A stretch of 64,000 nucleotides of DNA, taken from Acidobacteriota bacterium. Lineage in GTDB: Bacteria > Acidobacteriota > Terriglobia > Terriglobales > SCQP01. A program made the position numbers and the translations under genes. The DNA is taken from contig SCQP01000002.1 of the NCBI GenBank assembly GCA_004299485.1, positions 1 through 64,000 of the forward strand, written 5' to 3'. The notes beneath the pieces are model-generated. The model was not told the origin of the DNA and ran no database searches. It worked only from the letters and a program-made list of their open reading frames with translations. This document shows, piece after piece, positions 25,284-40,402 of this stretch (its first letter is position 1; each line of letters opens with the position of its first letter).

Positions 25284-28200
25284 TTACTTTCCGCCGGCGA
25301 TTACGTTCGGGACCTTTTTCGAGCGCAACTCAGTGTTGAACTGGGTCAGGTCGGTGGAGAGGATCTGATCGAGCTGCTGCTGGTGCGCGGCGACCTGCTT
25401 GGCCAGCATCGTATTCACCTCGACTTGCTGATCGGTGGGCTGGAAGTCGGAACTGGTGACTTCGCGCTCCAGATAGGTCAGCTTGTCAATGAGGGTGGGC
25501 GCCCAGCGCCATTGGTCCTCGCCCTTGCCGGTGGCCTTGGTGTTATACAGGCCGGCTTCGAGGGATTCGAGCTTAGAGCTGAGCGCGGCGGCGGATTTAT
25601 GCAGGGCGGGAGCATCGGCGGCGGCGGGTCCGCCGGGATCGGCGGCGACGGCTTCGTCGAGGGAGACAAGCTGTCCGCGCACCAGCTCGATGCGATTGAT
25701 CATGGCGGTGACCTGCTTGTACTCGGCGGCGATGGCGTCGGCGAGCTTCTGCTGTGCGGCGATATCGGCGAGGGTGCCGCTGGAGTGGGGGTCTTTGAGC
25801 AGGAGGAAGGGCTGCTTGCGGGTGGTGCCGGCGGCGGTGAGCTCGAGAGTGTAGGTGCCGGGCGGCTCCAACAGCGTCAGCGGGCGGTCGTTGGGCGCGG
25901 TGCGCCAGCCGTGGAGATTGAGGGTTTGGTCGGGGGCATAGGGCGACATGGTGCGCAGATGGACGACCGGCAGCGCCGAGGATTGCATTTTCCAGTAAAC
26001 GCGGTTGAGGCCGGCAACGCCCGCGGCTTTGATGGTGTCGACGGTATGGCCCTCGGCGTTGACGACAGCGATGCGGACATTCTTGTCGGGCGCTTTGAGG
26101 TAGAAATTGATGACAGCACCGGGCGGAGGGTTCTGGCCCGCGCTGGGATCGGCGCCGGTTGAGATTTGGCGCACGGCGCCACGGAAGCGGTATGCGGGGC
26201 GCGGTGGGAACAGATAGGCGGCGCTGTCGGCGACCTGCTGGGAGTATTGCTCGAGGGGCTGGATGTCGCCCAGAATCCAGAAGCCGCGGCCATAGGTGCC
26301 GATCACGAGATCGTGGCGGCGGGGCTGGATGGTGAGCCAGTAGACGGGAGCGTGGGGCAGATTCATCTGCAGCGGCTGCCACTGGTCGCCGTTGTTGAAG
26401 GAGACGTAGACGCCGCCTTCGGTGCCGAGATAGAGCAGGCCTTTGCGGACGGGGTCCTCGATGACGCAGTGAGCGTAGCCGTTGGCGACGTGGGGCAGGC
26501 CGTTGGTGATCTTGGTCCAGGTGGCGCCGTAGTCACCGGTGCGGTAGACGTAGGGATCGCGGTTATCCACCTGATGAAAATCGACCGTGAGATAGGCGGC
26601 GCCGGCGGCGAACGGAGAAGGGAAGATGTTATCGACGGTGCCCCAGGGCGGCAGACCGGGAAGATTTTTGGTGAGGTTGGTCCAGTGCTTGCCGCCGTCA
26701 CGGGTAAGCTGCACCTGGCCATCGTTGGTGCCCGCCCAGATGAGGCCCTCCTGCTTCGGCGACACCGCGAGGGCGTAAATGACGCCGGCGTATTCGACGC
26801 CAATGTTGTCGGGCGTGAGGCCGCCGGAAATGCCCATGCGGGCTTTGTCGTCGAGCGTCAGGTCGGGGCTGATGTCCTGCCAGCTTTGGCCGCCGTCGGT
26901 GGTCATGTGGACGACCTGGCTGGCGGTGTAGACGCGGTGGGAATCAAACGGTGAAATCACCAGCGGGAACTGCCAGTTGAAGCGGTACTTGACTTCACCG
27001 GCGGGCGTACCGGCGACGGTGACGGGCCAGACTTCGACGTTGCGCTCCTGGCCGTTTTTCTGGTTGTAAATATCGACGACGCCGCCGACGGCGCCTTCAC
27101 CGGTGCCGCTGTTCCAGACGAGGTCGGGGTTGGAGGGATCGGGCAGGGCAAAACCTTCTTCGCCGCCACCGATGGTGTGCCAGTAGGAGGAGGCGATGGT
27201 GCCGCCGCGGCCGAAGAAGCCGCCGCCATTGGCGAGGCGGCTGGGGCCTTCGTAGCTGCCGGTATCCTGCTCGTTGCCGAGGACGTTGTAGGGAATGGCG
27301 TCGTCCACGGCGACATGGTACATCTGGCCATTGGCGAGGCGGACGTGGCGCCAGCTCTTGCCGCCGTCGGTGGTGATGGAGACACCGCCATCGTTGGCGA
27401 CGGCCATGCTGCGGGAGTTGGTGGGGTCAATCCACATGTCGTGGTTGTCGCCGCCGGGGCTGGAGGGCATGCGGGTGAGGGTGTGACCGCCGTCGAGGGT
27501 GCGGGTGAAGGCGTTGCCCAGGAAATAGACTTCGTTGGGGTTGCTGCTGCTGACCTCGCCGCGCGTGTAATAGGCGGTGCGGCTGCGGATATCACGGTCG
27601 CTGCTGACCAGCGTCCAGGTTGCGCCGGCGTTGCTGGAAGCCCAGAGCTGGCCGATCTGGGTGGGCTTACCATTGTCGGGCACGCCATCGCCGGTCTCGA
27701 TCAGGGCGTACACGCGGCTGGGATCGCTGGGTGCGACGGCGAGGCCGATTTTGCCGAGGGGCGAGTGGGGCAGGCCGTGGGCGGTGAGGCGCGTCCAGGT
27801 GGCGCCGCCGTCGAGGGATTTGAAAATGCCGCTGCCCGGGCCGCCGCTGGTGCGTCCCCAAGTGTGCAGGATGATCTGCCAGGTGGAGGCATAGACGATT
27901 TCAGGATTGGACATGTCCAGGGCGATGTCGCTGCAGCCGGTGTTGTCGTCCACGAAAAGGGTTTTGGTCCAGGTTTTGCCACCGTCGGTGGTGCGGTAGA
28001 CGCCGCGTTCGGGCTGCGGACCGTAATCGTTGCCCTGCGCGCAGGCGAGCACCACGTCGGAGTTGCGGGGGTCGATGATGACGCGGCCGATGCGGCCGGT
28101 TTTGTCGAGTCCCATGTGCTGCCAGGTGGCGCCGCCGTTGGTGGATTTGTAGATGCCGTCACCGATGGAGATATCGCTGCGGATGAAGCTTTCGCCCGTG

Positions 28201-28514
28201 CCCGCCCAGACGATATTGGGGTTGCTGCGCGCCACGGCGAGCGCGCCGATGGATTGCACCGGCTCAGCGTCGAACATGGGCTGCCAGGTGGTGCCGCCGT
28301 CGGTGGTCTTGAAGACGCCGCCCGAGGCCGCGCCCACGTACCAGATGTTGGGATTGCCGGCGACACCGGCTACCGCGTCGGTGCGGTTGCCGGGAGGGCC
28401 GATATAGCGCCAGCGCATGTGGCTATAGGCGCTTGGCGGCATGGACTGAGTTTGAGCCCAGGCCATGGCTCCTAGCGCCACGGCAATCACAACAAAACGC
28501 AGAAGCTGCCGCAT
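25284..28514 (-). CDS. Secreted VPS10/BNR-repeat (sortilin-like) propeller protein
   Basis: The 1076-residue exported protein has a signal peptide (LLRFVVIAVALGAMAWA-Q) and then a long beta-propeller region with Asp boxes (KTTDGGTTW, KSTNGGATW, RTTDGGKTW, KSLDGGATW, MTTDGGQSW, LTRDGGKHW). The last 250 residues are Ig-like and helical, with KQPFLLLKDPHSSG and a terminal coiled region. It is a paralogue of the protein at 58729-61797 along its whole length (shared openings MRWRLIGP / MRWRYIGP and blocks such as TIQPRRHDLVIGTYGRGFWILGD). The role is unknown; relatives are sometimes annotated as glycosyl hydrolases without catalytic evidence. The start has GGGAGGG about 8 nt upstream. Confidence 0.9.
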   Translation of the reverse strand: MRQLLRFVVIAVALGAMAWAQTQSMPPSAYSHMRWRYIGPPGNRTDAVAGVAGNPNIWYVGAASGGVFKTTDGGTTWQPMFDAEPVQSIGALAVARSNPNIVWAGTGESFIRSDISIGDGIYKSTNGGATWQHMGLDKTGRIGRVIIDPRNSDVVLACAQGNDYGPQPERGVYRTTDGGKTWTKTLFVDDNTGCSDIALDMSNPEIVYASTWQIILHTWGRTSGGPGSGIFKSLDGGATWTRLTAHGLPHSPLGKIGLAVAPSDPSRVYALIETGDGVPDNGKPTQIGQLWASSNAGATWTLVSSDRDIRSRTAYYTRGEVSSSNPNEVYFLGNAFTRTLDGGHTLTRMPSSPGGDNHDMWIDPTNSRSMAVANDGGVSITTDGGKSWRHVRLANGQMYHVAVDDAIPYNVLGNEQDTGSYEGPSRLANGGGFFGRGGTIASSYWHTIGGGEEGFALPDPSNPDLVWNSGTGEGAVGGVVDIYNQKNGQERNVEVWPVTVAGTPAGEVKYRFNWQFPLVISPFDSHRVYTASQVVHMTTDGGQSWQDISPDLTLDDKARMGISGGLTPDNIGVEYAGVIYALAVSPKQEGLIWAGTNDGQVQLTRDGGKHWTNLTKNLPGLPPWGTVDNIFPSPFAAGAAYLTVDFHQVDNRDPYVYRTGDYGATWTKITNGLPHVANGYAHCVIEDPVRKGLLYLGTEGGVYVSFNNGDQWQPLQMNLPHAPVYWLTIQPRRHDLVIGTYGRGFWILGDIQPLEQYSQQVADSAAYLFPPRPAYRFRGAVRQISTGADPSAGQNPPPGAVINFYLKAPDKNVRIAVVNAEGHTVDTIKAAGVAGLNRVYWKMQSSALPVVHLRTMSPYAPDQTLNLHGWRTAPNDRPLTLLEPPGTYTLELTAAGTTRKQPFLLLKDPHSSGTLADIAAQQKLADAIAAEYKQVTAMINRIELVRGQLVSLDEAVAADPGGPAAADAPALHKSAAALSSKLESLEAGLYNTKATGKGEDQWRWAPTLIDKLTYLEREVTSSDFQPTDQQVEVNTMLAKQVAAHQQQLDQILSTDLTQFNTELRSKKVPNVIAGGK

Positions 28515-28574
28515 AGTGCAACCCTCCCTGCTACAGACTTATCAGGCGGAATATAGATCAGTCACTGCCGGAAG

Positions 28575-29903
28575 TCAAAGCGTAAATACCCACATGACAG
28601 TGAGGATCACAATCACTACGCTCGTACTCCAGGCGATGGCGTTGGCCCACCAGCCGTTGCGGTATTCGCCCATGACGTCTTCGCGGTTGATGAGCTTGAG
28701 CATGAAGACCAGCACCACGGGCAGCAGGATGCCATTGGCGACCTGGGAGTAGAGGATGACCTGCACCAGCGGCAGGCGGGGAATGAGCACCAGACCGGCG
28801 CCGGCGGCGATGAGGAAGGTATAGAGGCCATAAAACGCCGGAGCTTCGGAGAAGCGCTTGTCGATGCCGCGCTCGAAGCCGAGGCCTTCGCAGACGTTGT
28901 AGGCGGTGGCGAGGGGCAGAATGGCCGCGGAAAGCAGGGCGGCGTTCACCAAGCCAATAGCGAACAGCAGCGCGGCGTAGCGGCCGGCCAGCGGCGCCAG
29001 GGCTTGCGCCACCTGAGCGATATTGTTGACATCGCGATGGCCGTGGACGTAGAGGGTGGCGGCGCAGGCGACGATGATGAAGAAGGAGACGACTTCGGTG
29101 ATGAAGCAGCCGCTGATGACGTCCCAGCGGCTCATGCCGTATTCCTTCTTGCCGATGCCTTTCTCGACTATCGAGGCTTGCAGGTAGAACTGCATCCAGG
29201 GGGTGATGGTGGTGCCGATGAGGCCGATCACCATGATTAGATAGGCCCCGTGGAATTGGATGCCGCTGGGCAAGACCATTTCGCGCAGGGCACGGGTCCA
29301 GTCCGGATGCGCCATCGCCGCCGAGAAGGCATAGGCGAAATAAATCATCGAGAAGGCGATGAGGATCATTTCGACTTTGCGGTAGCGGCCGCGCACCACC
29401 AGCAGCCAGATGAGGAGCGCGCCGACGGGCACGGAAATCCACTTGAGGACGTGGAAGAGGTCCATGCCCAGCGCGAGGCCGCTGAACTCGCTGACGATAT
29501 TGCCGAAATCGGCAATCGAGAGGACGATCATGGCGAAGAAGGTGGCGCGGAAGCCAAACTCTTCGCGGATCAGGTCGCTCAGGCCCTTGCCGGTGACGGC
29601 GCCCATGCGGGCCGCCATTTCCTGAATGATGATCAGGGCGATCAGGGTGGGGATGAGGGTCCAGAGAAGCAGGTATCCGAACTGGGCGCCGGCCTGGGAG
29701 TAGGTGAGGATGCCGCCGGGGTCGTTATCGACGTTGGCGGTGATGAAGCCGGGGCCGAGGATGACGAGGAAAGGCAGGATGCGCGCCGCCCAGAGGGAGC
29801 GCGCGCGGCGACGGGAACGGGGCTTGGCGGGCGAGGCATCGGCGGGTGCACTGGCGCGCACGGCAGCAGTGGCAGAGTCGGGTTGAGGCCGGCGGAAAGG
29901 CAA
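28575..29903 (-). CDS. Nramp-family divalent metal transporter with non-canonical metal-site motifs
   Basis: The 442-residue inner-membrane protein has about eleven transmembrane helices in the Nramp order. Helix 1 reads GPGFITANVDNDPGGILTY: the canonical DPGN is DPGG. Helix 6 reads GLIGTTITPWMQFYLQASIV, where canonical Nramps have MPHN. Such departures are known in Nramp-related magnesium transporters, so manganese or iron should not be assumed. The basic N-terminal tail (RSRRRARSLWAAR) is cytoplasmic. The start is uncertain: TTG at 29903 or GTG 14 codons later. A long leader with stem potential lies upstream. Confidence 0.87.
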   Translation of the reverse strand: MPFRRPQPDSATAAVRASAPADASPAKPRSRRRARSLWAARILPFLVILGPGFITANVDNDPGGILTYSQAGAQFGYLLLWTLIPTLIALIIIQEMAARMGAVTGKGLSDLIREEFGFRATFFAMIVLSIADFGNIVSEFSGLALGMDLFHVLKWISVPVGALLIWLLVVRGRYRKVEMILIAFSMIYFAYAFSAAMAHPDWTRALREMVLPSGIQFHGAYLIMVIGLIGTTITPWMQFYLQASIVEKGIGKKEYGMSRWDVISGCFITEVVSFFIIVACAATLYVHGHRDVNNIAQVAQALAPLAGRYAALLFAIGLVNAALLSAAILPLATAYNVCEGLGFERGIDKRFSEAPAFYGLYTFLIAAGAGLVLIPRLPLVQVILYSQVANGILLPVVLVFMLKLINREDVMGEYRNGWWANAIAWSTSVVIVILTVMWVFTL

Positions 29904-30060
29904 CGTCCTGCTCTCGAAACGGGCCGGGCGGACAGACTACGCCCGTCACGAGAGGAGGGGACTCAGCTAAATATCCGCGCCGCCTCGGGAGGGCCAGCTT
30001 GCGCCACCAGGATCCGATGGGGTTTCCATAAGCGTCTGTTCCACCGTAGCACACGAACCA
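29904..30060 (-). promoter_or_regulatory. Long leader of the Nramp-related gene, candidate structured RNA
   Basis: Read leftward, CTCTCG (about 29950-29955) can pair with CGAGAG (about 29916-29921) around an inner GGGCG / CGCCC hairpin, and ATGG-AAAC-CCAT forms another hairpin near 30020. There is room for a metal-sensing riboswitch, but I could not match the conserved bases of the M-box or the manganese riboswitch by eye. Confidence 0.3.
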
Positions 30061-30092
30061 AAGCCGCGAGCAAAAATTGGCACAATGAAGGC

Positions 30093-30368
30093 ATGCCGTC
30101 CATCACTCTACGTCAGTTGCGCGACACCAGGCGGCTGAAGGCCTGGCTGTGTGCGGGTCAGACCGTCGAGCTGCGCGAGCGCGACCGGGTGCTGGCGCGG
30201 ATCGTGCCGCAGCTTCAACCGCGCAAGGAGCGGAGGCCCGGCTTCCCCGATTTTGAGGCGCGGGCGAAGCGCATGTTTGGCGACCGGCAGTTCGACATCG
30301 TGGACTGGCTCATAAGGAATAAACGAATGAACGGCGTGTTCAATTCCCGCTGGAGTAGGGCGGAATAG
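30093..30368 (+). CDS. Solitary Phd/YefM-like antitoxin
   Basis: The 91-residue protein opens MPSITLRQLRDTRRLKAWLC, then GQTVELRERDRVLARIVP, the standard Phd/YefM N-terminal DNA-binding fold (short strand, helix, then a -hairpin ending in ARIVP-type). The C-terminal part FEARAKRMFGDRQFDIVDWL resembles toxin-neutralising tails. No toxin follows: only 33 bp separate it from the convergent aminopeptidase gene, and the last residues after LIRNKR look like read-through. Probably an orphan or a decayed module. Confidence 0.7.
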   Translation: MPSITLRQLRDTRRLKAWLCAGQTVELRERDRVLARIVPQLQPRKERRPGFPDFEARAKRMFGDRQFDIVDWLIRNKRMNGVFNSRWSRAE

Positions 30369-30401
30369 ACCGGCCCGGTTCATTTAGGCCGGCCCGGATC
30401 G

Positions 30402-31634
30402 CTACACCCACTCGCCGTGGCGGAAGACGGGCTCGGGGCCATGGGGGCCGAGGCCGTCGACGTCGATTTGGCCGGAGCCGATCATCCAGTCGACGTGGAT
30501 GAGGCTTTCGTTGGCGCCGCGGGCGGCGAGTTCCTGGCGCGTGGCTTTGTCGCCGCCTTCGAGGCAGTGGCTGTAGGACTGGCCGAGGGCGATGTGGCAG
30601 GCGGCGTTTTCATCGAACAGGGTGTTGTTGAAGAGCAGACCGCTGGCGGCGATGGGTGAGGAATGAGGAACCAGCGAGACTTCGCCCAGGCGGCGGGCGC
30701 CGGCGTCGGTGCCGATCATTTGCTGCAGGACCTGCTCGCCTTTGCTGGCGTGGGCTTCGACTACGGCGCCGGCTGCAAAGCGCACCTTGATGCCTTCGAT
30801 CATGGTGCCCTGGTAGGACAGCGGCTTGGTGCTGGTGACGGTGCCTTCGACGCGGTCTTTGTGGGGCGTGGTGAAGACCTCTTCGGTGGGCAGGTTGGGA
30901 ATGCAGTAGACGCCGTTATTGGCGGTCATGCCACCGCCGCGCCAGACGTGGCCATCGGATAAGCCGACTTTGAGATCGGTGCCGGGGCCGCGGAAGTGGA
31001 GGGTCTGAAACTGTTTTTTGGTCATGCGGTCGGCCCATTCGTGCAGCTTGGCATCGTGGGCCTTCCAGGCGGCGACGGGGTCGGGCTGATCGACGCGGGT
31101 AGCTTTGAAAATGGCGTCCCAGAGGCGGTCGAGCGCCTCGGTTGCCGACCGACCGGGAAAGACGGCGGCGGCCCAGGCGGGCGTGGCGGCGGGGACGAGC
31201 GCCCAGTTGATGTGGTGGTTGGTGATCAGCTCCAGCGCCGGCTGATAGGCCTTGGACATGGCGCGGTTGGCGCGCGCGACCTTGGCTGGATCCTGCTGCG
31301 AGAGCAGCGCTGGGTTGCTGCCGACCACGCCGAGGCGCGCGGCGCCGGAACGGAAGGCGGCGGCCATGCCGTCGTAGAGCCATCCGGCGGCGGCATCGAA
31401 ACTGGCATCGGGGCCGAACTGGTAGCGCAGCAGGGCCGAATTCTCGTCACTGAGCAGGGTCGTTACCAAGGTGGCGCCGGCGCGGTAGGCGTGTTCGGTA
31501 ATGCGGCGCACCAGCGGGAGGGCGTCCACGCCTGCGGTCATGACCATCGCTTGCCCGGAGGCTAGGCCTAGGCCGGCATGTACCGCAACCTGAGCGAGGC
31601 GGTCCAACTTGTCTTCAAAACGCAATTCACTCAT
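30402..31634 (-). CDS. M29-family metalloaminopeptidase
   Basis: The 410-residue protein matches thermophilic aminopeptidases of family M29 (AmpS/AmpT type), cytoplasmic dimers with two metals. Signatures seen: GQAMVMTAGVDALPLVRRI, FRGPGTDLKVGLSDGHVWRG, NGVYCIPNLPTEEVFTTPHK, IEGIKVRFAAGAVVEAHASKG (metal-binding Glu), GLLFNNTLFDENAACHIALGQSY (Glu, His, Tyr), and IHVDWMIGSGQIDVDG (His, Asp). The start at 31634 gives MSELRFEDKLDRLAQVAV, the expected N-terminus. It reads leftward after the radical SAM terminator and is its own unit. Confidence 0.93.
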   Translation of the reverse strand: MSELRFEDKLDRLAQVAVHAGLGLASGQAMVMTAGVDALPLVRRITEHAYRAGATLVTTLLSDENSALLRYQFGPDASFDAAAGWLYDGMAAAFRSGAARLGVVGSNPALLSQQDPAKVARANRAMSKAYQPALELITNHHINWALVPAATPAWAAAVFPGRSATEALDRLWDAIFKATRVDQPDPVAAWKAHDAKLHEWADRMTKKQFQTLHFRGPGTDLKVGLSDGHVWRGGGMTANNGVYCIPNLPTEEVFTTPHKDRVEGTVTSTKPLSYQGTMIEGIKVRFAAGAVVEAHASKGEQVLQQMIGTDAGARRLGEVSLVPHSSPIAASGLLFNNTLFDENAACHIALGQSYSHCLEGGDKATRQELAARGANESLIHVDWMIGSGQIDVDGLGPHGPEPVFRHGEWV

Positions 31635-31662
31635 AGAACTATTATCGGCCGTAGGTAGATGA

Positions 31663-31696
31663 AAAAAGCCCCGGTCTGGGGAGACCGGGGCTTTTT
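31663..31696 (-). terminator. Intrinsic terminator of the radical SAM gene
   Basis: AGACCGGGGC-type arms of 15 bp (AAAAAGCCCCGGTCT at 31663-31677, AGACCGGGGCTTTTT at 31682-31696) enclose GGGG. Read leftward, the stem is followed by a T tract. It lies 22 bp after the stop of the radical SAM gene; its symmetry would let it work in both directions. Confidence 0.9.
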
Positions 31697-31718
31697 GGTT
31701 GCGGAGGAAAAGGGAAGG

Positions 31719-33452
31719 TCAGCAGGTGCCGCTGCCGCAGCCGCCGGCGGCTTGCAGGACGGGCAGGGCTTTCTTGGCGGCGTCGCCGGCCACTTGCGTG
31801 GTCTGGCTGCCGTTGGGAATCTGCATGGTGGTGAGCTGGCGGTCGAAAGGCATCGAGTACTTCTTCTCGATCTTCTCGCGGTAGACCGGGCCCGAGTTGT
31901 AGGTGCAGAAGGGATAGATCAGACCGTTGGGCGCGGCGTAGTGAATGATGCAACGCTTCACGCGCTCGACGTCGTAGTTGTAGCTATCCATGAAGTGCAT
32001 GCCGGCGACCATCAGGGTCTTGTAGACGAAGCCCTTTTCGGCTTCGGCGCCGCGACCGTAGCTCTTGTCGGTCATGCCCTGGAGGGTTTGCAGGAAGCGG
32101 GTGAAGGTCAGGCCTTCGGGAGCGCGCTCGGCGTGGAAATGCTTCTGCAGCGAGTTCCAGGTCTTCACCTTGCTGAAGAACTTGAAGCGGGCCTTTTCGG
32201 CGCTGCGGGCGAGGCTGTCAATATCCTGCAGCATGGCGCCAATATCGACGAAGCGGGTGACGGGAATCGCCTTCTTGGTCTTCTGATCGACGAACATGTA
32301 GGTGCCCATGGAGCAGTGGGGATGGCAGCTCAGGGAGGTGGTTTCCTCGCCGCGCAGGGCGCTGATCAGCTTGGAGAAAGGCGTGGTGCAGGCGAGCGGG
32401 AACCAGTCGTTGTAAGGATCGGCGAGGCCGGTCTGCTCGTTGACGGCGTGGGCCATATCGGCGAGGGTGAAGCGCTTAGCTTCGAGCTCTTTGCGCGAGA
32501 TGCGGCCGGTGAAGGTGACGGGCTGGAAGCTGATGCCGCTGACGACGTCGATGTTTTCAAGCGCCAGCTTGATGATGTCGCCGATCTGATGATCATTCAG
32601 GCCCTTGACGATGGTGGGCACGAAGACGATCTTCATAATGCCGGCCTTGCGGACGTTGTCGATGCACTTCAGCTTCTTGTCGAACAGCGACTCGCCGCGG
32701 GTGCGCTTGTAAATGTCGTCGCAGACGCCGTCGAACTGCAGATAGAGGGTGTGCAGTCCGGCGTCGCGGGCCTTGATGCAGAAGTCGAGATCGTTCCACA
32801 TGACGCCGTTGGTGGCTACCTGAATGTGGCTGAAGCCCATTTCCTTGGCGAGAGCGACGGCATCGTGGAAGCGCGGGTAAATCGTGGGTTCGCCGCCGGA
32901 GAACTGGACTACGCGGCCAGAGACTGGGCGCTCGTTGCGCAGCGCCTGGAGCATCTTGCGGACCTGATCGAAGCTGGGCTCGTAGAGGTAGCCAGCCGCG
33001 TTGGCGTTGGCGAAGCAGACCGGACAGGTGAGGTTGCAGCGGTTGGTCAGATCGACGTTGGCCAGGCCGGTGCCGCTGACGTGCATGGAGCACAGGCCGC
33101 ACTGGTCGGGACAGCGGGTGGCGTTGGGGATGGCGGGGTTGGTGAGACCGCGGTTGTCACCGAACTGCCACTGCTCCATCTTTAAATAGAGCTTTACGTC
33201 GCCGTAAACTTTGTCGCGGAAATAACCGTGCGTGGGGCAGGTTTTTTCCATATAGACGGCGCCATTTTCCTCGAACTCGCGCGCCTCAATGACGCGGGTG
33301 CAGTCGGGGCAGAGGGACTGGGTGATTTTGGGCAGGCCCTTGTGGATGGCTTCGATACGGGAACCTGAGAGGGTTTTCTCCGGTTGCACGACGGCGAAGT
33401 CCGCGCGCTTCACTGCGGCAAACGGCTCGGGCGTAATTGTCTGGGTACTCAT
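31719..33452 (-). CDS. Radical SAM protein of the Tes (tetraether lipid synthase)/MJ0619-like group
   Basis: The 577-residue enzyme carries the radical SAM motif CNLTCPVC (C139, C143, C146) that binds a [4Fe-4S] cluster, followed by FSGGEPTIYPRF. N-terminal zinc/iron cysteines (SLCPDC at 48-51, C72 in KTCPTHG; CPDQCGLC at 114-121) and the line DQCGLCSMH-x-TGLANVDLTNRC are the layout of Tes, which joins the alkyl chains of membrane lipids in archaea; bacterial homologues are candidates for membrane-spanning lipids such as iso-diabolic acid and branched GDGTs. The C-terminus ends in an extra Cys motif, GGCGSGTC. GGGAGG precedes the ATG by about 9 nt, and a strong terminator follows, so it is monocistronic. 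Family membership is firm; the substrate is inference. Confidence 0.82.
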   Translation of the reverse strand: MSTQTITPEPFAAVKRADFAVVQPEKTLSGSRIEAIHKGLPKITQSLCPDCTRVIEAREFEENGAVYMEKTCPTHGYFRDKVYGDVKLYLKMEQWQFGDNRGLTNPAIPNATRCPDQCGLCSMHVSGTGLANVDLTNRCNLTCPVCFANANAAGYLYEPSFDQVRKMLQALRNERPVSGRVVQFSGGEPTIYPRFHDAVALAKEMGFSHIQVATNGVMWNDLDFCIKARDAGLHTLYLQFDGVCDDIYKRTRGESLFDKKLKCIDNVRKAGIMKIVFVPTIVKGLNDHQIGDIIKLALENIDVVSGISFQPVTFTGRISRKELEAKRFTLADMAHAVNEQTGLADPYNDWFPLACTTPFSKLISALRGEETTSLSCHPHCSMGTYMFVDQKTKKAIPVTRFVDIGAMLQDIDSLARSAEKARFKFFSKVKTWNSLQKHFHAERAPEGLTFTRFLQTLQGMTDKSYGRGAEAEKGFVYKTLMVAGMHFMDSYNYDVERVKRCIIHYAAPNGLIYPFCTYNSGPVYREKIEKKYSMPFDRQLTTMQIPNGSQTTQVAGDAAKKALPVLQAAGGCGSGTC

Positions 33453-33852
33453 TCCGCTGGTCCTCCCTTGAACAGTTTGCGGGCGAGCCTAGGCAGATGC
33501 CCGGCAGATCCCCGCTCCATTGTGATGCTAGCCAGCCGGGGACAGGGGTCTCAAGGCCAATGCGGCGAATGGCGGTTTGGCGCACCCGAGCGGTTCGACG
33601 GGCTGGTTGAACGGCGGAAGGCCTTGCGGATCAACAGATTGGCTTTCAGCCATCAGCCATCAGCGTGGCTCGCCACTTTTTGCCCTGGTCGCTCCCGCTG
33701 GTCGCTCGGAGTGCGGGCTTCGATTCCCGGCAGGGTCCGCCCGCTGGCGCTCAGGGCTCCTCCAAGCTGCCGCCGGGGGCGGGGTGTCGGCGGCTCTCGA
33801 TCGGGGTGGTTCGGCAGAGCTGAAAGCTGACTGCTGAACGTTGATCGCTGGT
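33453..33852. other. Gene-free spacer between ftsA and the radical SAM gene
   Basis: No coding region is convincing in these 400 bases. Positions 33665-33774 hold a copy of the 110-bp repeat. It is flanked on the left by CAGCCATCAGCCATCAGC and on the right by GCTGAAAGCTGACTGCTGAA, short units that are partly inverted relative to each other. The segment 33453-33640 should contain the promoter of the radical SAM gene, but I see no strong consensus. Confidence 0.6.
33665..33774. repeat. 110-bp dispersed repeat (GTGGCTCGCCAC family), copy 1
   Basis: It begins GTGGCTCGCCAC (4-bp stem), continues TTTTTGCCCTGGTCGCTCCC, holds an inverted GCGGGC ... GCCCGC pair around TTCGATTCCCGG, and ends CTCCTCCAAGCTGCCGCC. 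It is nearly identical to copies at 38729 and 44824 (only a few substitutions each). Confidence 0.9.
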
Positions 33853-35061
33853 TCAGTCGGCGAGGGAGGCCCACTTGGCGCGGAGCTTGTCCCAGAAGGT
33901 GGGTTGCTGCTGCTGGCGGGCGACGAGGCGGTGGGCGTAGTAGCAGGCGCCGACGGAGAAGGTGTACTCGGGTTCGGCGAACGCGGAGGGCATGGCTTCG
34001 ACTAAGGTGGGCGCGGCGTCGCGCACGGGCATCCCGGTGGCCTCGGCGAGCAAATCGCTGAAGCCGGGGAGACGGCTGGCGCCGCCGCAGAGGACGATGC
34101 CGGCACCCAGGCCGCCGGCCTTGGCCAGCTCGACTTGCAGAAGGCGGACCAGCTCGCGCGCGCGCGGCTCGATGCAATCGGAGATGCGGCGCAGGGGGAC
34201 CTGGCGGGAGGATTGCTCGCCGATGTTGGGCACCTCAATGACGCTGGTCTCGCCGATATTGGCGCCCATGGCCACGCCAAAGCCGCACTTGATGCGTTCG
34301 GCTTCGGCGTGCGGCGTCGATAAGCCGATGGCGAGGTCGTTAGTGAAATGATCGCCGCCGATGGCGACGGAGCCGGCGTGGGTGATGCTGCCCTGGCTGT
34401 AACAGAGGACGGTAGTCGAGCCGGCGCCAGCATCGACGATGGCTACGCCTTCGTAGCGGTCTTCGGTGGCGAGACAGGCTTCGGCGTCGGCGAGGGGGGC
34501 GAAGATGAGTTCCTCAACTTCGAGACCGGCGTGGTTGGCGGCGAGCACCAGGTTGTCCTTGGCGCCGACGGCGACGGTGATGGCGTAGACGCGGACTTCA
34601 AGACGGGTCGCCAGCATGCCGGCCGGCTCATGGATGCCGCCCTGACGGTCGAGCACGAACTCCTGAGGCACGACGTGCAGGATCTGGCGGTCATCGGGCA
34701 GCGTCATGGTGCGAGCCAGGTCGAGGACATGGCGGGCGTCTTCGCGTGTGACCTCGCGGCTGCGGGAGGTGAGGGCGATGCCAGCCTGGCTGGCGAGGCC
34801 GCGCACCTGGGCGCCGGTGAGGCTGAGGAAGACGCGCTCCACCGGCGTTCCCGTCTGACGCTCGAGCGCGAGGGCGGCGGAGCGGATGCGGCCGGCGACC
34901 GCCTCCAGCGCCACCACGGCGCCTTTGCGCATGCCTGCGGTCGGGAGGGTGACGTGGCCAGCGTAGCGCATGTGGCCGCCGGCGACGCGGATCTGCAGCA
35001 GCGTGGTGCGGGCGGTGCCGAGATCGAGAATGTTGAAGGTTAGGGGCGGGACCGGGTTCAC
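33853..35061 (-). CDS. ftsA: Cell division protein FtsA
   Basis: FtsA is the actin-like ATPase that tethers FtsZ to the membrane. The 402-residue protein shows ILDLGTARTTLLQIRV (phosphate 1), LTGAQVRGLAS, ILHVVPQEFVLDRQGGIHEP (1C domain), AIVDAGAGSTTVLCYSQGSI (phosphate 2), GGDHFTNDLAIGL, and VLCGGASRLPGFSDLLAEATGMPV (adenosine motif). The C-terminus PTFWDKLRAKWASL could serve as the amphipathic membrane anchor. It overlaps ftsQ by 4 bp. No ftsZ follows; a radical SAM gene lies 400 bp downstream instead. Confidence 0.94.
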   Translation of the reverse strand: MNPVPPLTFNILDLGTARTTLLQIRVAGGHMRYAGHVTLPTAGMRKGAVVALEAVAGRIRSAALALERQTGTPVERVFLSLTGAQVRGLASQAGIALTSRSREVTREDARHVLDLARTMTLPDDRQILHVVPQEFVLDRQGGIHEPAGMLATRLEVRVYAITVAVGAKDNLVLAANHAGLEVEELIFAPLADAEACLATEDRYEGVAIVDAGAGSTTVLCYSQGSITHAGSVAIGGDHFTNDLAIGLSTPHAEAERIKCGFGVAMGANIGETSVIEVPNIGEQSSRQVPLRRISDCIEPRARELVRLLQVELAKAGGLGAGIVLCGGASRLPGFSDLLAEATGMPVRDAAPTLVEAMPSAFAEPEYTFSVGACYYAHRLVARQQQQPTFWDKLRAKWASLAD

Positions 35062-36065
35062 CGCTGCTCTCCGCGGGAAGGCTTGGTGCTGGCCGCGGGA
35101 GCGGGTGCTGCGGTGGGGCCGGGATCGACAATCGCCTGGCCATCGAAGTGGAGATCGACGGAAACCATGTTGGGGTATTTCTGACGCCAGGAGGCGATCT
35201 GGGAAAGGAAGAGCTGGAAGCGCGGTTCGAAGTTACGGTTGCCCAGATCCACCAGCACGGAACTGCCGGCGCCGAGGCTGACGCGGGCGCGCAGATCGCC
35301 GGGATTGCGCAGGTTGACTTCGGAAATGGCGAAGGCGGCGTGATGGCCCAGCGGCGCGACGGCTTGTTGCAGCGCGCTCCAGCGGGCGACTTGCGGCTGG
35401 CGCTGGTCCAGCCACTCGCTGGCGTTGGGGTTGACGGCGCTGATGCCGGCGAGGCCGGTGAGCACGGGGAAATCGAAATTGGCTTTGGCAGGCCGCTCCA
35501 GCAGCACGCCCTGGGCATCGATCAGGTCGAGATGGCTGCCGACGCGGGCGTAGGCCACGGGTGTGCGCTCCTGAATTTTGACTTCGAGGCGGGCGGGCCA
35601 CAGGCGCAAGACCGCAGCCTGCCGCACCCAGGGGATGCGCTCGACGGCGCGGCGGCGCTGGGAGAGCGGGATAAAGAAGAGGTTGCGGCCCAGATCGGCG
35701 GAGAAGACGGCCAGCACCCGTTGCCCATCGGTCTGGTGGGCGCCGGTGATGGCGATCTGGCCGGAACCTTCGAGCAGGAACCAGGAGCTGCGGAAGACGA
35801 GGCTGTACAGCGCGAACGCCACCAGCAGGGCGAGAGCAGCGGCGAGGGAGGGCCGCCAGCCGCGGCGCAGCATTTGGGCCCAGTCGCGGCTGCGCTTGCG
35901 GCGCACGGGGACGGGGGCCCGGCGGCGGCGGTAGCTGGTTTCTTCTGCGTCCGGGGCCTCTGGCGGAGCTTCGGGGTCGAGGGCTTCGAGTTCGTCTTCG
36001 GCGCGGGGCGCGGGCGGCTCGGGACCGTCGCGTACGATGCGCACCTTTCGCGTGGCATTGCTCAT
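35058..36065 (-). CDS. ftsQ: Cell division protein FtsQ
   Basis: The 335-residue bitopic membrane protein has an acidic, then basic N-terminal tail (EDELEALDPEAPPEAPDAEE, RRRRAPVPVRRKRSR), a single transmembrane helix (LAAALALLVAFALYSLVF), a POTRA domain (GQIAITGAHQTDGQRVLAVF, LGRNLFFIPLSQRRRAVERI) and the FtsQ domain (VLRLWPARLEVKIQERTPVA, IDAQGVLLE, FPVLTGL). It links FtsBL to the divisome. It overlaps both murC (upstream) and ftsA (downstream) by 4 bp. Confidence 0.93.
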   Translation of the reverse strand: MSNATRKVRIVRDGPEPPAPRAEDELEALDPEAPPEAPDAEETSYRRRRAPVPVRRKRSRDWAQMLRRGWRPSLAAALALLVAFALYSLVFRSSWFLLEGSGQIAITGAHQTDGQRVLAVFSADLGRNLFFIPLSQRRRAVERIPWVRQAAVLRLWPARLEVKIQERTPVAYARVGSHLDLIDAQGVLLERPAKANFDFPVLTGLAGISAVNPNASEWLDQRQPQVARWSALQQAVAPLGHHAAFAISEVNLRNPGDLRARVSLGAGSSVLVDLGNRNFEPRFQLFLSQIASWRQKYPNMVSVDLHFDGQAIVDPGPTAAPAPAASTKPSRGEQR

Positions 36066-37525
36066 GATGCGGGCGCCCTCACGCTATCGGCTTGCGCGGC
36101 TTGCAATGCACCGAGCAGCTTTGCGCCCAGGCTGGAGACGTTGCCGGCGCCCTGGGTCAGGATTAAATCGCCGGGCCGCGCGGCACGGGCGGCGGCGCAG
36201 ATGGCCTCATCGGCGCTGGTTGCGTAGGTGACGAGGGCGCCGGTTGCGAGGGCCTGACGCGCCAGAGCCTCGCTCGAGACCCCGGGGATCGGGGCTTCGC
36301 CGGCGGGGTAAATATCCAGCAGCCAGGTCTGATCGGCGAGCGCGAGCACCTGGGCAAATTCGTGCTGCAAGTGCAGCGTGCGGGTGTAGCGATGGGGCTG
36401 AAAGATCATGAGCACGCGCCCGGGCGGGTTTCCCTGCGTGGGGTGATGCACGACCTCGCGGGCGGCGGCGAGGGTGGCGGCCAATTCGGTGGGGTGGTGG
36501 CCGTAGTCGTCGATGACACGCACGCCGCCGACTTCGCCCTTGAGCTGAAAGCGGCGATCGACGCCGCCGAAATCGGCGATGGCGGCGCGAATCAGTTCCA
36601 GGTCGCGGCCGAGGAGCAGGCCGACGGCTATCGCCGCGGTGGCATCGAGGACGTTGTGCAGGCCGGGGCGGCGAAGGCGGAATTCGCCCAGATCGCGGTT
36701 GGCGAGCTGCTCGCGGCCAAGCAAATGCGCCGCCGCCGTCGTGGGCTGCAGCGAGAAGCGTGCTTCCATGCCGTGCAGTTCCGGGCGCAGGACGCGCAGG
36801 TCGCAATCGTCGTGCAGTCCATAGCTGAGCGAGCGCCGGCGGATGCGCGGCAGGATGGCGCGGGTGGCTTCGTCGTCGGCGCCGACGATGACGGTGCCGT
36901 AGAACGGAACGCGGTTGGCGAAGGTCACGAAAGCGTCCTGAATGTCGCTCAGGTCGCGGTAGCAGTCCAGATGCTCGCGGTCGAGGTTGGTGATGATGGC
37001 CATGATGGGCGCCAGAGCGAGAAACGAGCGGTCGCTTTCGTCGGCTTCGGCGACGAGATAGTTGCTCGAGCCCAGGCGGGCGTTGGAGCCGATGGCGTCG
37101 AGGCGTCCGCCCACGACCACGGTGGGGTCGAGGCCGACGGCAGCGAGCACGGTGGCGATCATGGAGGTAGTGGTGGTTTTGCCGTGCATGCCGGCGACGG
37201 CGATGCCGAATTTGAGGCGCATCAGCTCGGCCAGCATTTCGGCGCGCGGGATGACGGGGATCTGTGCGGCGCGCGCGGCGGCGACCTCGGGGTTATCGGG
37301 CGCGACGGCGCTTGAGGTCACGACCACTTCGGCATCGCCGAGGTTGGCGGCGGCGTGGCCGATGTGGATGCGTGCGCCCATGGCCTGCAGGCGTTCGGTG
37401 ATGGGCGAGGCGCGCAGATCGGAGCCGGAGACGGGCCAGCCCTGTACCAGCAAGACTTCGGCGATGCCGCTCATGCCGATGCCGCCAATGCCTACGAAAT
37501 GAACACGAAAAATCCGGGAGAGCAT
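36062..37525 (-). CDS. murC: UDP-N-acetylmuramate--L-alanine ligase
   Basis: MurC adds L-alanine to UDP-MurNAc, the first peptide step of peptidoglycan synthesis, in the cytoplasm. The 487-residue protein has RVHFVGIGGIGMSGIAEVLL, the ATP-binding loop VAGMHGKTTTTSMIATVL, DESDRSFLALAPIMAIITNLDREHLD, GLHNVLDATAAIAVGL, VIDDYGHHPTELAATLAAAR and LIFQPHRYTRT-type motif. The start at 37525 (MLSRIFRVHF) has GGAG about 8 nt upstream; the frame continues upstream without support. It is first in murC-ftsQ-ftsA, a shortened dcw cluster without murB, ddl or ftsZ. Confidence 0.96.
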   Translation of the reverse strand: MLSRIFRVHFVGIGGIGMSGIAEVLLVQGWPVSGSDLRASPITERLQAMGARIHIGHAAANLGDAEVVVTSSAVAPDNPEVAAARAAQIPVIPRAEMLAELMRLKFGIAVAGMHGKTTTTSMIATVLAAVGLDPTVVVGGRLDAIGSNARLGSSNYLVAEADESDRSFLALAPIMAIITNLDREHLDCYRDLSDIQDAFVTFANRVPFYGTVIVGADDEATRAILPRIRRRSLSYGLHDDCDLRVLRPELHGMEARFSLQPTTAAAHLLGREQLANRDLGEFRLRRPGLHNVLDATAAIAVGLLLGRDLELIRAAIADFGGVDRRFQLKGEVGGVRVIDDYGHHPTELAATLAAAREVVHHPTQGNPPGRVLMIFQPHRYTRTLHLQHEFAQVLALADQTWLLDIYPAGEAPIPGVSSEALARQALATGALVTYATSADEAICAAARAARPGDLILTQGAGNVSSLGAKLLGALQAAQADSVRAPAS

Positions 37526-37569
37526 GCCTTTGCTCCATCGTACCCGCGCCCGTGCTGCCCGGCTAGGTA

Positions 37570-38046
37570 CTACTGAGTTGCGGGTCCGCCAGCGGCCTTT
37601 TGGAGCGCGGCGAGGTCGAATTTTTTCATCGTCAACATGGCCTGAAAGGCCTGCGGGTGCCGGATCAGCTCCATGATTTCCGACGGCACGATCTGCCAGG
37701 AGAGACCGAAGCGGTCGGTCAGCCAGCCGCATTGAATCTCCTGGCCGCCCTCGGTCAGGTGTGACCAGTAATAGTCAATTTCGGCTTGGTCCCGGCAGGT
37801 CACGAAAAAAGACACCGCGGGGTTGAACTGATATGCCGGACCGCCATTGAGGGCCACAAAGGGATGGCCGCTCAGCTCGAATTCGAGGGTCAAAATGGCG
37901 CCTTTAGGACCGGGCGCCCCCGCCGGGTTGCGCAGCTCGCGAAGGCGGCGCGAGTTCGGGAAGACGCTGAGATAAAAATCCACGGCGGCTTCGGCATTAT
38001 CGTTGAACCACAAGAAGGGGGTGATCTGGGGTGGTTTCAAGGGCAT
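37570..38046 (-). CDS. PhnB-like VOC-superfamily protein
   Basis: The 158-residue protein has the PhnB/3-demethylubiquinone methyltransferase-like VOC fold: ITPFLWFNDNAEAAVDFYLS-type start, LTLEFELSGHPFVALNGGPA, and the C-terminal CGWLTDRFGLSWQIVPSEIM then the terminal MLTMKKFDLAALQKA. Despite the database name, such proteins usually lack proven methyltransferase activity and the function is unknown. GGAG precedes the ATG by about 8 nt. It is divergent from gmhB and downstream of nothing obvious. Confidence 0.88.
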   Translation of the reverse strand: MPLKPPQITPFLWFNDNAEAAVDFYLSVFPNSRRLRELRNPAGAPGPKGAILTLEFELSGHPFVALNGGPAYQFNPAVSFFVTCRDQAEIDYYWSHLTEGGQEIQCGWLTDRFGLSWQIVPSEIMELIRHPQAFQAMLTMKKFDLAALQKAAGGPATQ

Positions 38047-38086
38047 AACCGTGCTCCTGCAGGTTTCGTTATAAGCTAAGTGGGCG

Positions 38087-38656
38087 ATGCGACCGGCGAT
38101 TTTCTTCGACCGTGATGGAACGCTGAACGAAGAGGTTGGCTACGCCGGCCGGCCCGAGCAATTTCATATTTTCCCATACGCGGCGGCGGCGGTGCGCGCG
38201 GTTAATGATGCCGGCTGGGCGGCGGTCTTGGTGACCAACCAGGCGGGGGTGGCGCGGGGCTACTATGCCGAAGCTGCCATTCACGAACTGCACGCTATCC
38301 TGCAGGATAACCTCGCTGCCGGAGGAGCGCACCTGGATGCGACTTACTACTGTCCCCATCATCCTGAAGGGGTGGTAGCTGGTTATGCGGGCGTGTGTGA
38401 GTGCCGCAAACCCGCGCCGGGGATGTTGCGCCAGGCTGAGCGCGAGCTCGGCCTGGACTTGGCGCGGTCGTGGGTGATCGGCGACCGCTACCACGATGTA
38501 GACCTGGCTCATGCCGTGGGCGCACGCGCGGTGCTGGTGCGCACCGGGTATGGGGAAGCGCAGCTTCTGGAAAAGCCGGACCTGAAGCCGGAGCACATCG
38601 CCGACGATGCCCTGGCGGCCTGCCAGTGGATTCTGGTTGGCGTCAACGGTGGTTGA
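38087..38656 (+). CDS. gmhB: D-glycero-beta-D-manno-heptose-1,7-bisphosphate 7-phosphatase
   Basis: GmhB is a HAD phosphatase in ADP-heptose synthesis for the LPS inner core. The 189-residue protein has the nucleophile motif IFFDRDGTLNEEVGY, VTNQAGVARGYY, the zinc-loop CPHHPEGV ... CECRKPAPGML, and WVIGDRYHDVDLAHAVGA. The start at 38087 has no ribosome site; TATAAG lies 11 nt upstream, so the transcript may be leaderless. The stop codon lies inside a 12-bp perfect inverted repeat. It heads the heptose gene cluster. Confidence 0.93.
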   Translation: MRPAIFFDRDGTLNEEVGYAGRPEQFHIFPYAAAAVRAVNDAGWAAVLVTNQAGVARGYYAEAAIHELHAILQDNLAAGGAHLDATYYCPHHPEGVVAGYAGVCECRKPAPGMLRQAERELGLDLARSWVIGDRYHDVDLAHAVGARAVLVRTGYGEAQLLEKPDLKPEHIADDALAACQWILVGVNGG

Positions 38657-38671
38657 TTATCAACCACCGTT
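38645..38671. repeat. Perfect palindrome straddling the gmhB stop codon
   Basis: AACGGTGGTTGA (38645-38656) and TCAACCACCGTT (38660-38671) are perfect complements around TTA. The gmhB stop TGA is the end of the left arm. No T tract follows, so a simple intrinsic terminator is unlikely; it may protect the 3' end or be a trace of a repeat insertion. Confidence 0.7.
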
Positions 38672-38728
38672 ATCGACCTGGCGTGGCCGCCCCGCTGCCG
38701 CCGATCCGCAGCGCCTAACAGCGGCATT

Positions 38729-38838
38729 GTGGCTCGCCACTATTTGCCCTGGTCGCTCCCGCTGGTCGCTTGGAGTGCGGGCTTCGATTCCCGGCAGGGT
38801 CCGCCCGCTGACGCTCAGGGCTCCTCCAAGCTGCCGCC
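38729..38838. repeat. 110-bp dispersed repeat (GTGGCTCGCCAC family), copy 2
   Basis: It lies in the 284-bp gap between gmhB and hldA and in the same orientation as copies 1 and 3. It differs from copy 1 by a few bases (TATTTG for TTTTTG, a GCTTGG for GCTCGG, GACGCTC for GGCGCTC). It is followed by CAAGCTTACAG, one of the short units seen near other copies. Confidence 0.9.
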
Positions 38839-38940
38839 ACAAGCTTACAGTTGGCTGCCCGACAGCAGCGCAATGCTAGCCCCGAGAGCCCATGCCGGAC
38901 GTGCCGCATGAGTTCGGGGTTTTGTTAAGCTAAGCTGGCG

Positions 38941-39936
38941 ATGCGAGCAGCCACAGACAATCTGCGGCAGGTGCTGGGCCGGTTTTCGCGGCTGACGGTC
39001 ACAGTGTGGGGCGACCTGGTGGCCGATGTGTTTGTGGATGGCGAGATCGCGCGGGTGTCACGCGAGGCGCCGGTGCTGATTCTGAAGCAGCGGCGGCGGC
39101 AGGTGGCGGCGGGCGGCGGAGCGAATGCGGCGCTGAATCTGGCGGCGCTGGGGGTGACGGTGCGGCTGGTGGGTGCGGTGGGTGCGGATGAGCCGGGCCG
39201 GGAACTACTGCGGATTTTTCGCACCGCGGGCATTGCGACCGGCGAGGTGCTGCGGCTACGCGAGCGGCCGACACCGACCAAAACACGGATTCTGGCGCAT
39301 CATGCCCATACCGCGCCGCAGCAGGTGGTACGGCTCGACCATGAACCGGCGGGGTTGCCGGCGGCGCAGCAGCGGGCACTGGCAGCGGCAGCGCGGCGGG
39401 CGGTGCGGGGGGCGCAGGCGCTGCTGCTTTCTGATTACGGCTACGGCGCGGTGACGCCTGGCGCGGCGGCCACGGTGGCGGCGCACGTGCCGGTTTCTGC
39501 CGTGGACGCACGCTTTCAGATTGCCGGCTATGCCGGTTTTACCGCGGCGACCCCCAACGAGCCGGAACTGGAAGCGGCTCTGAACGTTAAGATTGCGGAG
39601 GCTGCCGAGCCGCTGGCGGCACTGGAGCAGGCAGGGCACAAGCTGCTGCGGCGCCTGCGCTGCCGACATTTGCTGGTGACGCGCGGGCGGGACGGCATGG
39701 CGTTGTTCGAGCCGGGACAGCGCACGCGGCATTGGCCGGTGTTCGGCGCGCAGCAGGCGCTCGACGTCACTGGCGCCGGCGACACCGTGATCGCCGTCTT
39801 TACCGCGGCGCTGGCGGCCGGGGCCGATGGGCCGACGGCGGCGCAATTGGCGAATTGTGCGGGCGGGCTGGTGGTGATGAAACCGGGGACCGCAACGGTG
39901 TCTGCGGGGGAGCTGAGCGATGCTGTGCAGCGATAA
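38941..39936 (+). CDS. hldA: D-glycero-beta-D-manno-heptose-7-phosphate kinase (HldE N-terminal domain type)
   Basis: The 331-residue PfkB/ribokinase-family enzyme phosphorylates heptose 7-phosphate at C1. It shows TVTVWGDLVADVFVDGEIAR, GGGANAALNLAALGVTVRLV, the TPTKTRILAHHAHTAPQQVV segment found in RfaE kinases, LLLSDYGYGAVTPG, PNEPELEAAL, LLVTRGRDGMALFE and the catalytic DVTGAGDTVIAVFTAAL. In E. coli this domain is fused to the nucleotidyltransferase; here they are two genes overlapping by 17 bp. TAAGCT lies about 9 nt before the ATG with no ribosome site. Confidence 0.93.
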   Translation: MRAATDNLRQVLGRFSRLTVTVWGDLVADVFVDGEIARVSREAPVLILKQRRRQVAAGGGANAALNLAALGVTVRLVGAVGADEPGRELLRIFRTAGIATGEVLRLRERPTPTKTRILAHHAHTAPQQVVRLDHEPAGLPAAQQRALAAAARRAVRGAQALLLSDYGYGAVTPGAAATVAAHVPVSAVDARFQIAGYAGFTAATPNEPELEAALNVKIAEAAEPLAALEQAGHKLLRRLRCRHLLVTRGRDGMALFEPGQRTRHWPVFGAQQALDVTGAGDTVIAVFTAALAAGADGPTAAQLANCAGGLVVMKPGTATVSAGELSDAVQR

Positions 39937-40402
39937 GATTCTTGCGCGGGAGCCATTGCTGAACCGCGCACGGGAGTGGCGGGGCCGGAGGCAGACGATC
40001 GCGCTGGCGAATGGCTGCTTTGACATTTTGCATGTGGGGCATGTCCGCTATTTGCAGGCAGCGGCGGCGGTGGCTGACCAACTGGTGGTGGCGATCAATT
40101 CCGACGCCAGCACACGCCAGCTCAAAGGGGAGGGCCGGCCGATTCTGCCGGAGCAGGCGCGCGCGGAGCTGGTGGCGGCGGTGCGCGGCGTGGCGGCGGT
40201 GACGGTGTTTGACGAACTTAGCGTCGAGCCCCTGCTGCGCACGCTGCACCCGGACTTTCATGTCAAAGGCACCGATTACACCATGGAATCAGTGCCGGAG
40301 GCGGCCATAGCGCGCGAGCTGGGGATTGCCGTGCGCATCGTGGGGGACCCGAAGCACCACTCCACCCGGGAGCTGCTGGACCGGCTGCGCGGCGCCGATT
40401 GA
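39920..40402 (+). CDS. hldC: D-glycero-beta-D-manno-heptose 1-phosphate adenylyltransferase
   Basis: The 160-residue cytidylyltransferase-like protein makes ADP-heptose from heptose 1-phosphate and ATP. It has ALANGCFDILHVGHVRYLQA with the catalytic HxGH, VVAINSDASTRQLKGEGRP, the substrate-specific VTVFDELSVEPLLRTLHPD and HVKGTDY. GGGGAG precedes the ATG by about 8 nt, within the end of hldA. It is the second half of HldE as a separate gene. Confidence 0.93.
   Translation: MLCSDKILAREPLLNRAREWRGRRQTIALANGCFDILHVGHVRYLQAAAAVADQLVVAINSDASTRQLKGEGRPILPEQARAELVAAVRGVAAVTVFDELSVEPLLRTLHPDFHVKGTDYTMESVPEAAIARELGIAVRIVGDPKHHSTRELLDRLRGAD

Follow-up and report, generated by a model that had tools for sequence, protein, structure and literature searches.

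Branched GDGTs are widely used in reconstructing past temperature and pH. There is no agreement on their producers or on the enzyme involved, and bacterial homologues of the tetraether lipid synthase (Tes) have been proposed for the task, although not proven. One such homologue is encoded in the stretch of DNA analysed here, 64,000 nt from a soil-type Acidobacteriota bacterium (the window), and the titles of the closest named relatives agree with this origin. What does the gene encode, and how does it relate to the other homologues of the class, of which two types, here called A and B, can be distinguished?

The tes gene and its protein

The sequence-only reading had placed a Tes-like gene at 31719-33452 without giving its strand. 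The open reading frame is genuine and lies on the minus strand, where it runs from ATG to stop over 577 codons (P0001). Its matches are well beyond chance: profile and structure-sequence searches gave E-values of 1.8e-175 for the Tes model NF045702 and 7.9e-135 for PDB 7tol. Moreover, orthologues in related genomes are 90-92% identical to the 577-aa protein, and this conservation within the family fits a steady constraint, as type A is estimated to change between about a quarter and a third as fast as MurC at every level of comparison. The gene order on the minus strand is murC, ftsQ, ftsA, tes, M29 aminopeptidase and Nramp transporter, and tes shares no operon with lipid genes. The ribosome site and terminator of its own that had been ascribed to the gene are indeed present, and no Rfam elements were found in positions 28000-40000 of the window.

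33853..35061, minus strand: ftsA, upstream flank of the slot occupied by type A or B (profile and synteny)
33525..33554, minus strand: promoter-like site TTGAGA-18-TAGCAT, weak and based on a consensus match only
33461..33468, minus strand: Shine-Dalgarno AGGGAGGA, 8 nt before the ATG of tes (sequence)
31719..33452, minus strand: type A tes gene, coding for a 577-aa radical SAM homologue of tetraether-lipid synthase (profile, PDB match and fold)
31663..31696, minus strand: strong hairpin terminator separating tes from the M29 gene, -26 kcal/mol, z -6.8 (folding)
30402..31634, minus strand: M29 aminopeptidase between tes and the Nramp gene, missing there in genome G003 (profile and synteny)
28575..29903, minus strand: transporter of the Nramp family, flanking the A/B slot downstream (profile and synteny)

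Antisense to tes, a 508-aa open frame spans positions 31659-33185 of the window and is apparently a side effect of codon use at high G+C.

With the NF045702 model (tetraether lipid synthase Tes) the protein scores 584.2 bits, against an NCBI curated equivalog cut-off of 450. The next best non-Tes profile, that of the TrsS radical SAM (seleno)protein (NF045646), reaches 326 bits, far under the Tes score and with a cut-off of its own at 490. The best solved relative is the GDGT-MAS of Methanocaldococcus jannaschii (MJ0619, PDB 7tol), which is 42% identical. Metal ligands were assessed in an alignment of the protein with MJ0619 plus 118 further sequences of type A or archaeal origin; the roles of the ligands in GDGT-MAS are those given in PMC9433317. 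Practically all of these sequences keep the ligand positions of the four GDGT-MAS cofactors, together with the equivalents of Met439 and Tyr459. The cysteine layout described earlier was recovered in full, with SLCPDC (C48, C51), KTCPTHG (C72, H75), CPDQCGLC (C114, C118, C121), CNLTCPVC (C139, C143, C146) and GGEP.

33228..33311, minus strand: rubredoxin-type iron site C48-X2-C51-X20-C72-X2-H75, equivalent to C9, C12, C33 and H36 of MJ0619 (alignment)
33081..33113, minus strand: N-terminal auxiliary [4Fe-4S] site C114, C118, C121, H124, equivalent to C73, C77, C80 and H83 of MJ0619 (alignment); absent in type B
33015..33038, minus strand: radical SAM [4Fe-4S] site C139, C143, C146, CX3CX2C (profile and alignment)
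32886..32897, minus strand: GGEP motif for SAM binding, residues 186-189 (sequence)
32313-32315, minus strand: further conserved cysteine C380 (alignment)
31905..32000, minus strand: C-terminal cluster region with M485 (the labile Met439), C501, Y505 (Tyr459) and C516 (alignment)
31722..31745, minus strand: GGCGSGTC tail, residues 570-577, unconserved and disordered; not a supported metal site

C380, C501 and C516 are invariant in the alignment and, judging from this conservation, are likely the cysteine ligands of the C-terminal cluster. When superposed on 7tol, the AlphaFold2 model of the 577-aa protein (pLDDT 82, pTM 0.84) reaches a Z of 50.3, with 483 residues aligned at 2.2 A; for MoaA, the next fold, Z is 20.7. 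In the same model the first 18 and the last 34 residues (544-577) are predicted to be disordered. The GGCGSGTC motif, once considered a possible extra metal site, does exist, but it falls within this disordered tail and is not conserved: at least two tail cysteines occur in 19 of the 43 type A proteins from acidobacteria, in no conserved pattern. The idea of a further metal site was consequently rejected. A different kind of C-terminal tail, resembling PELVQIG or EPELVG, is common to several type A and type B proteins (L004, L006, L010, L037, L149) despite cores that are only about 36% identical, and possibly marks a common partner or a sorting signal.

The protein is thus a further member of the already known Tes family, and the assignment as a Tes-like radical SAM enzyme stands on a score above the curated cut-off, the presence of every cofactor ligand, the matching fold and the grouping with archaeal Tes in a tree. 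With archaeal Tes/GDGT-MAS (MJ0619, PDB 7tol and 7tom; Saci_0703) it shares the fold over those 483 residues, the four metal sites, the labile Met and the Tyr. It differs from them in its extra disordered N- and C-terminal tails, in its position beside rather than within the archaeal clade, and in its bacterial host without archaeol lipids, where the predicted substrate is an iso-fatty-acid glycerolipid.

Two homologues in the class

A relative of the tes protein was found in 374 of 399 genomes of the class, in a scan in which at most three top candidates per genome were scored. Type A (692 bits or more) is rare, occurring in 35 of the 399 genomes, and type B (mostly about 300-330 bits) is nearly universal, with about 367 of 399 as read off the scan table. 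Most carriers of type A, about 28 of 35, also have type B. Type B proteins are about 690 aa long, 34-37% identical to type A, and score 325-330 bits with NF045702, under the cut-off of 450. Like the window protein (about 36% identity), they possess the radical SAM core, the rubredoxin site and the C-terminal cluster with Met and Tyr, and they occupy the same slot in the window's family. The N-terminal [4Fe-4S] ligands, however, are missing from all 28 type B sequences that cover the site, while the other three metal sites are kept.

Type B is probably the bacterial membrane-spanning lipid synthase of the Mss type, similar to that of E. aggregans. A contrast of the same kind was reported earlier, in that the homologues of Koribacter and Solibacter are 40-42% identical to archaeal Tes and that of Edaphobacter aggregans 32%, the first two being named only as candidates (PMC8941075). 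The proteins of Ca. Koribacter versatilis and Ca. Solibacter usitatus come from the same phylum as the window protein and show the same level of identity to archaeal Tes; compared by description only, they are very probably type A. S. usitatus has two Tes homologues and makes brGDGTs (PMC10087280), whereas the window lineage has type A alone.

In a tree of 75 sequences, a quick one with SH-aLRT values only and with long branches present, type A groups with archaeal Tes and apart from type B (SH-aLRT 99-100). A phylogeny with archaeal Tes had been proposed as a check on the assignment, and its outcome sets the window protein away from the other acidobacterial homologue. Type A lies beside the archaeal clade and is not nested in it, and is joined by homologues from Nitrospirota, Myxococcota and an anammox planctomycete. 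A recent transfer from a particular archaeal group is unsupported, as archaeal Tes forms one side of the branch with bacterial type A outside. A Tes-type protein with 49% identity (L056:6001-7533) comes from a metagenome bin that bears the name Kuenenia stuttgartiensis (anammox). One acidobacterial homologue (L066:6001-7599) sits on a long branch between A and B and possibly represents a third type.

The earlier attribution of acidobacterial iso-diabolic acid to Tes homologues needs a correction. The protein remains a candidate tail-coupling Tes. The class, however, has two distinct homologues and most members have only B, so its iso-diabolic acid cannot simply be credited to type A.

Proposed chemistry and the link to Ger-like genes

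With its family, cofactor ligands and fold established, as well as the exchange at one slot and the co-occurrence with Ger-like genes described below, a substrate, product and chemistry can be inferred for the window protein. We consider it a bacterial Tes that joins iso-branched tails into lipids of the iso-diabolic-acid/branched-GDGT type and that has taken over from type B in this lineage, with a probability of roughly three in four. Saturated tails are joined by archaeal GDGT-MAS, with an [Fe4S4] cluster carrying a carbon-sulfur intermediate, and the enzyme was found to bind phosphatidic acid from E. coli (PMC9433317). Iso-fatty acids and phytanyl chains both terminate in an isopropyl group (PMC8941075). 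From this chemistry and the shared end group it follows that the window enzyme may couple tails of the iso-C15 type. Among Acidobacteria, members of SD1/SD3 commonly contain iso-diabolic acid (PMC13274423).

The oxygen-sensitive radical SAM enzyme would couple two iso-branched (iso-C15-type) membrane-lipid chains through their terminal methyl carbons. If archaeal GDGT-MAS is a guide, one tail would lose a hydrogen to a 5'-deoxyadenosyl radical, and the resulting carbon radical would be stored on a sulfur atom of the C-terminal [4Fe-4S] cluster. A second round would then activate the partner tail, generating the sp3-sp3 bond. The predicted product is the iso-diabolic-acid (13,16-dimethyloctacosane) backbone of membrane-spanning lipids. 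Together with a Ger-like reductase, which would convert esters to alkyl ethers, the end products could be brGDGT-type or mixed ester/ether lipids. According to a 2025 report, bacterial Tes homologues had not been experimentally confirmed to make membrane-spanning lipids (PMC11868695), and no demonstration of bacterial Tes activity was found in the literature searched, most subscription journals being outside its coverage.

A candidate for the reductase is encoded on another contig (C5) of the window genome. The 1156-aa Ger-like protein contains two PF01869 (BcrAD/BadFG activase) domains and DUF2229, and its operon (G000:C5:6968-13651, L140) consists of a 621-aa partner, the Ger-like protein and an unclassified radical SAM gene, which may modify the lipid. 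Two such activation domains occur in glycerol ester reductases (Ger) validated by expression; Ger and PlsA are not distinguishable by sequence alone (PMC13274423). In genome G280, from another genus (L193:4335-12632), the matching operon reads partner, Ger-like, B and radical SAM, and in G126 the Ger-like gene and B adjoin.

Among genomes of 90% completeness or more, 26 of 31 type A carriers have a Ger-like gene, versus 70 of 288 others. The association holds when stratified by family (CMH, OR about 12, p 5e-7) and at genus level (22/26 versus 31/93, p 3.5e-6), although it is phylogenetically structured and these stratifications correct for this only partly. Part of it could stem from a common low-oxygen lifestyle; NrdD, as a marker of anaerobic life, occurs in 1 of 399 genomes, too few to control for this. 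As 5 of the 31 well-sampled carriers have no Ger-like gene, type A is not tied to ethers only.

The slot shared by types A and B

In the window genome (98.8% complete) type A is present and type B was not found, nor were B remnants seen adjoining tes in the window. The slot reads ftsA-A-Nramp in three genomes of the genus (the window, G002 and G003), with only 236 bp between A and the Nramp gene in G003. Four genomes of three sister genera carry B in exactly this slot, and in G012 a B fragment follows ftsA at the contig end. The order murC-ftsQ-ftsA-x-Nramp, with x being A or B, is the same on single contigs, and no genome of the window's family was found to have both types. A has another location in genera g3 and g6, where ftsA and the Nramp gene are on separate contigs. 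In the FtsA+MurC tree of family f1 the A and B genera are interleaved and A is not one clade; the deep branches are weak. Outside the family, A and B lie within about 6 kb of each other in six genomes of three other families (match-to-match gaps of 0.5-6 kb), among them G136, the nearest outside genome. Reciprocal loss from an ancestral A-B pair is the simplest history, with in-place replacement as the alternative. In the window's family ftsA is not followed by ftsZ, which is on other contigs or far away; in G136 ftsZ does follow ftsA. A loss of ftsZ behind the ftsA locus was rejected, as ftsZ was found elsewhere in all genomes tested.

The slot pattern suggests that A and B can stand in for each other. 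In line with this, B is more often missing where A is present, as expected if A can do the job of B: it is absent in 6 of 30 good genomes with A versus 8 of 287 without (Fisher p 8e-4, with counts made by hand from the class scan and related genomes not independent). In the window lineage, type A would have replaced the enzyme used by most of the class. These same observations bear on the strongest rival, an unlikely one in our judgement, in which the protein is a Tes-fold radical SAM enzyme with another hydrophobic substrate or another bond (an intra-lipid cross-link, or a coupling that supplements B) and not the main iso-diabolic-acid synthase. The substrate cannot be read from the sequence, the many carriers of both types leave room for an added role of A, and such a role on ethers would fit the tie to Ger-like genes. 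Against this stand the presence of A in the slot of B with B absent in the window's family, the excess of missing B among A carriers, and the isopropyl end common to both kinds of tail.

It is very improbable that the shared slot is a coincidence or an artefact of assembly or binning. Most of the genomes are indeed metagenome assemblies, and A is situated elsewhere in g3 and g6, but the same order recurs on single contigs in three genomes with A and in four genomes of three genera with B, besides the G012 fragment. Least credible of all is a pterin methylase of the MJ0619/HMPTM type (a class D radical SAM methylase), which the older annotation and a match to Pfam PF23545 (Zn_ribbon_HMPTM) would favour, since that activity could not be reproduced and a lipid-filled hydrophobic tunnel and tetraether synthesis were shown instead (PMC9433317). 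The Pfam name presumably reflects the old annotation.

New in this analysis are the two types of homologue in the class, their exchange at one locus and the tie to a Ger-like operon. A broader picture for the Terriglobia can be put forward only tentatively: the archaeal-type Tes and the Mss-like type B might be interchangeable and swapped in place, with Tes tied to Ger, and lineages with A only might be natural makers of brGDGTs via Tes alone. In a lineage that has only A, situated where sister genera keep B and accompanied by a Ger-like operon, nature has separated the two candidate enzymes, which makes the question of the branched GDGT synthase directly testable.
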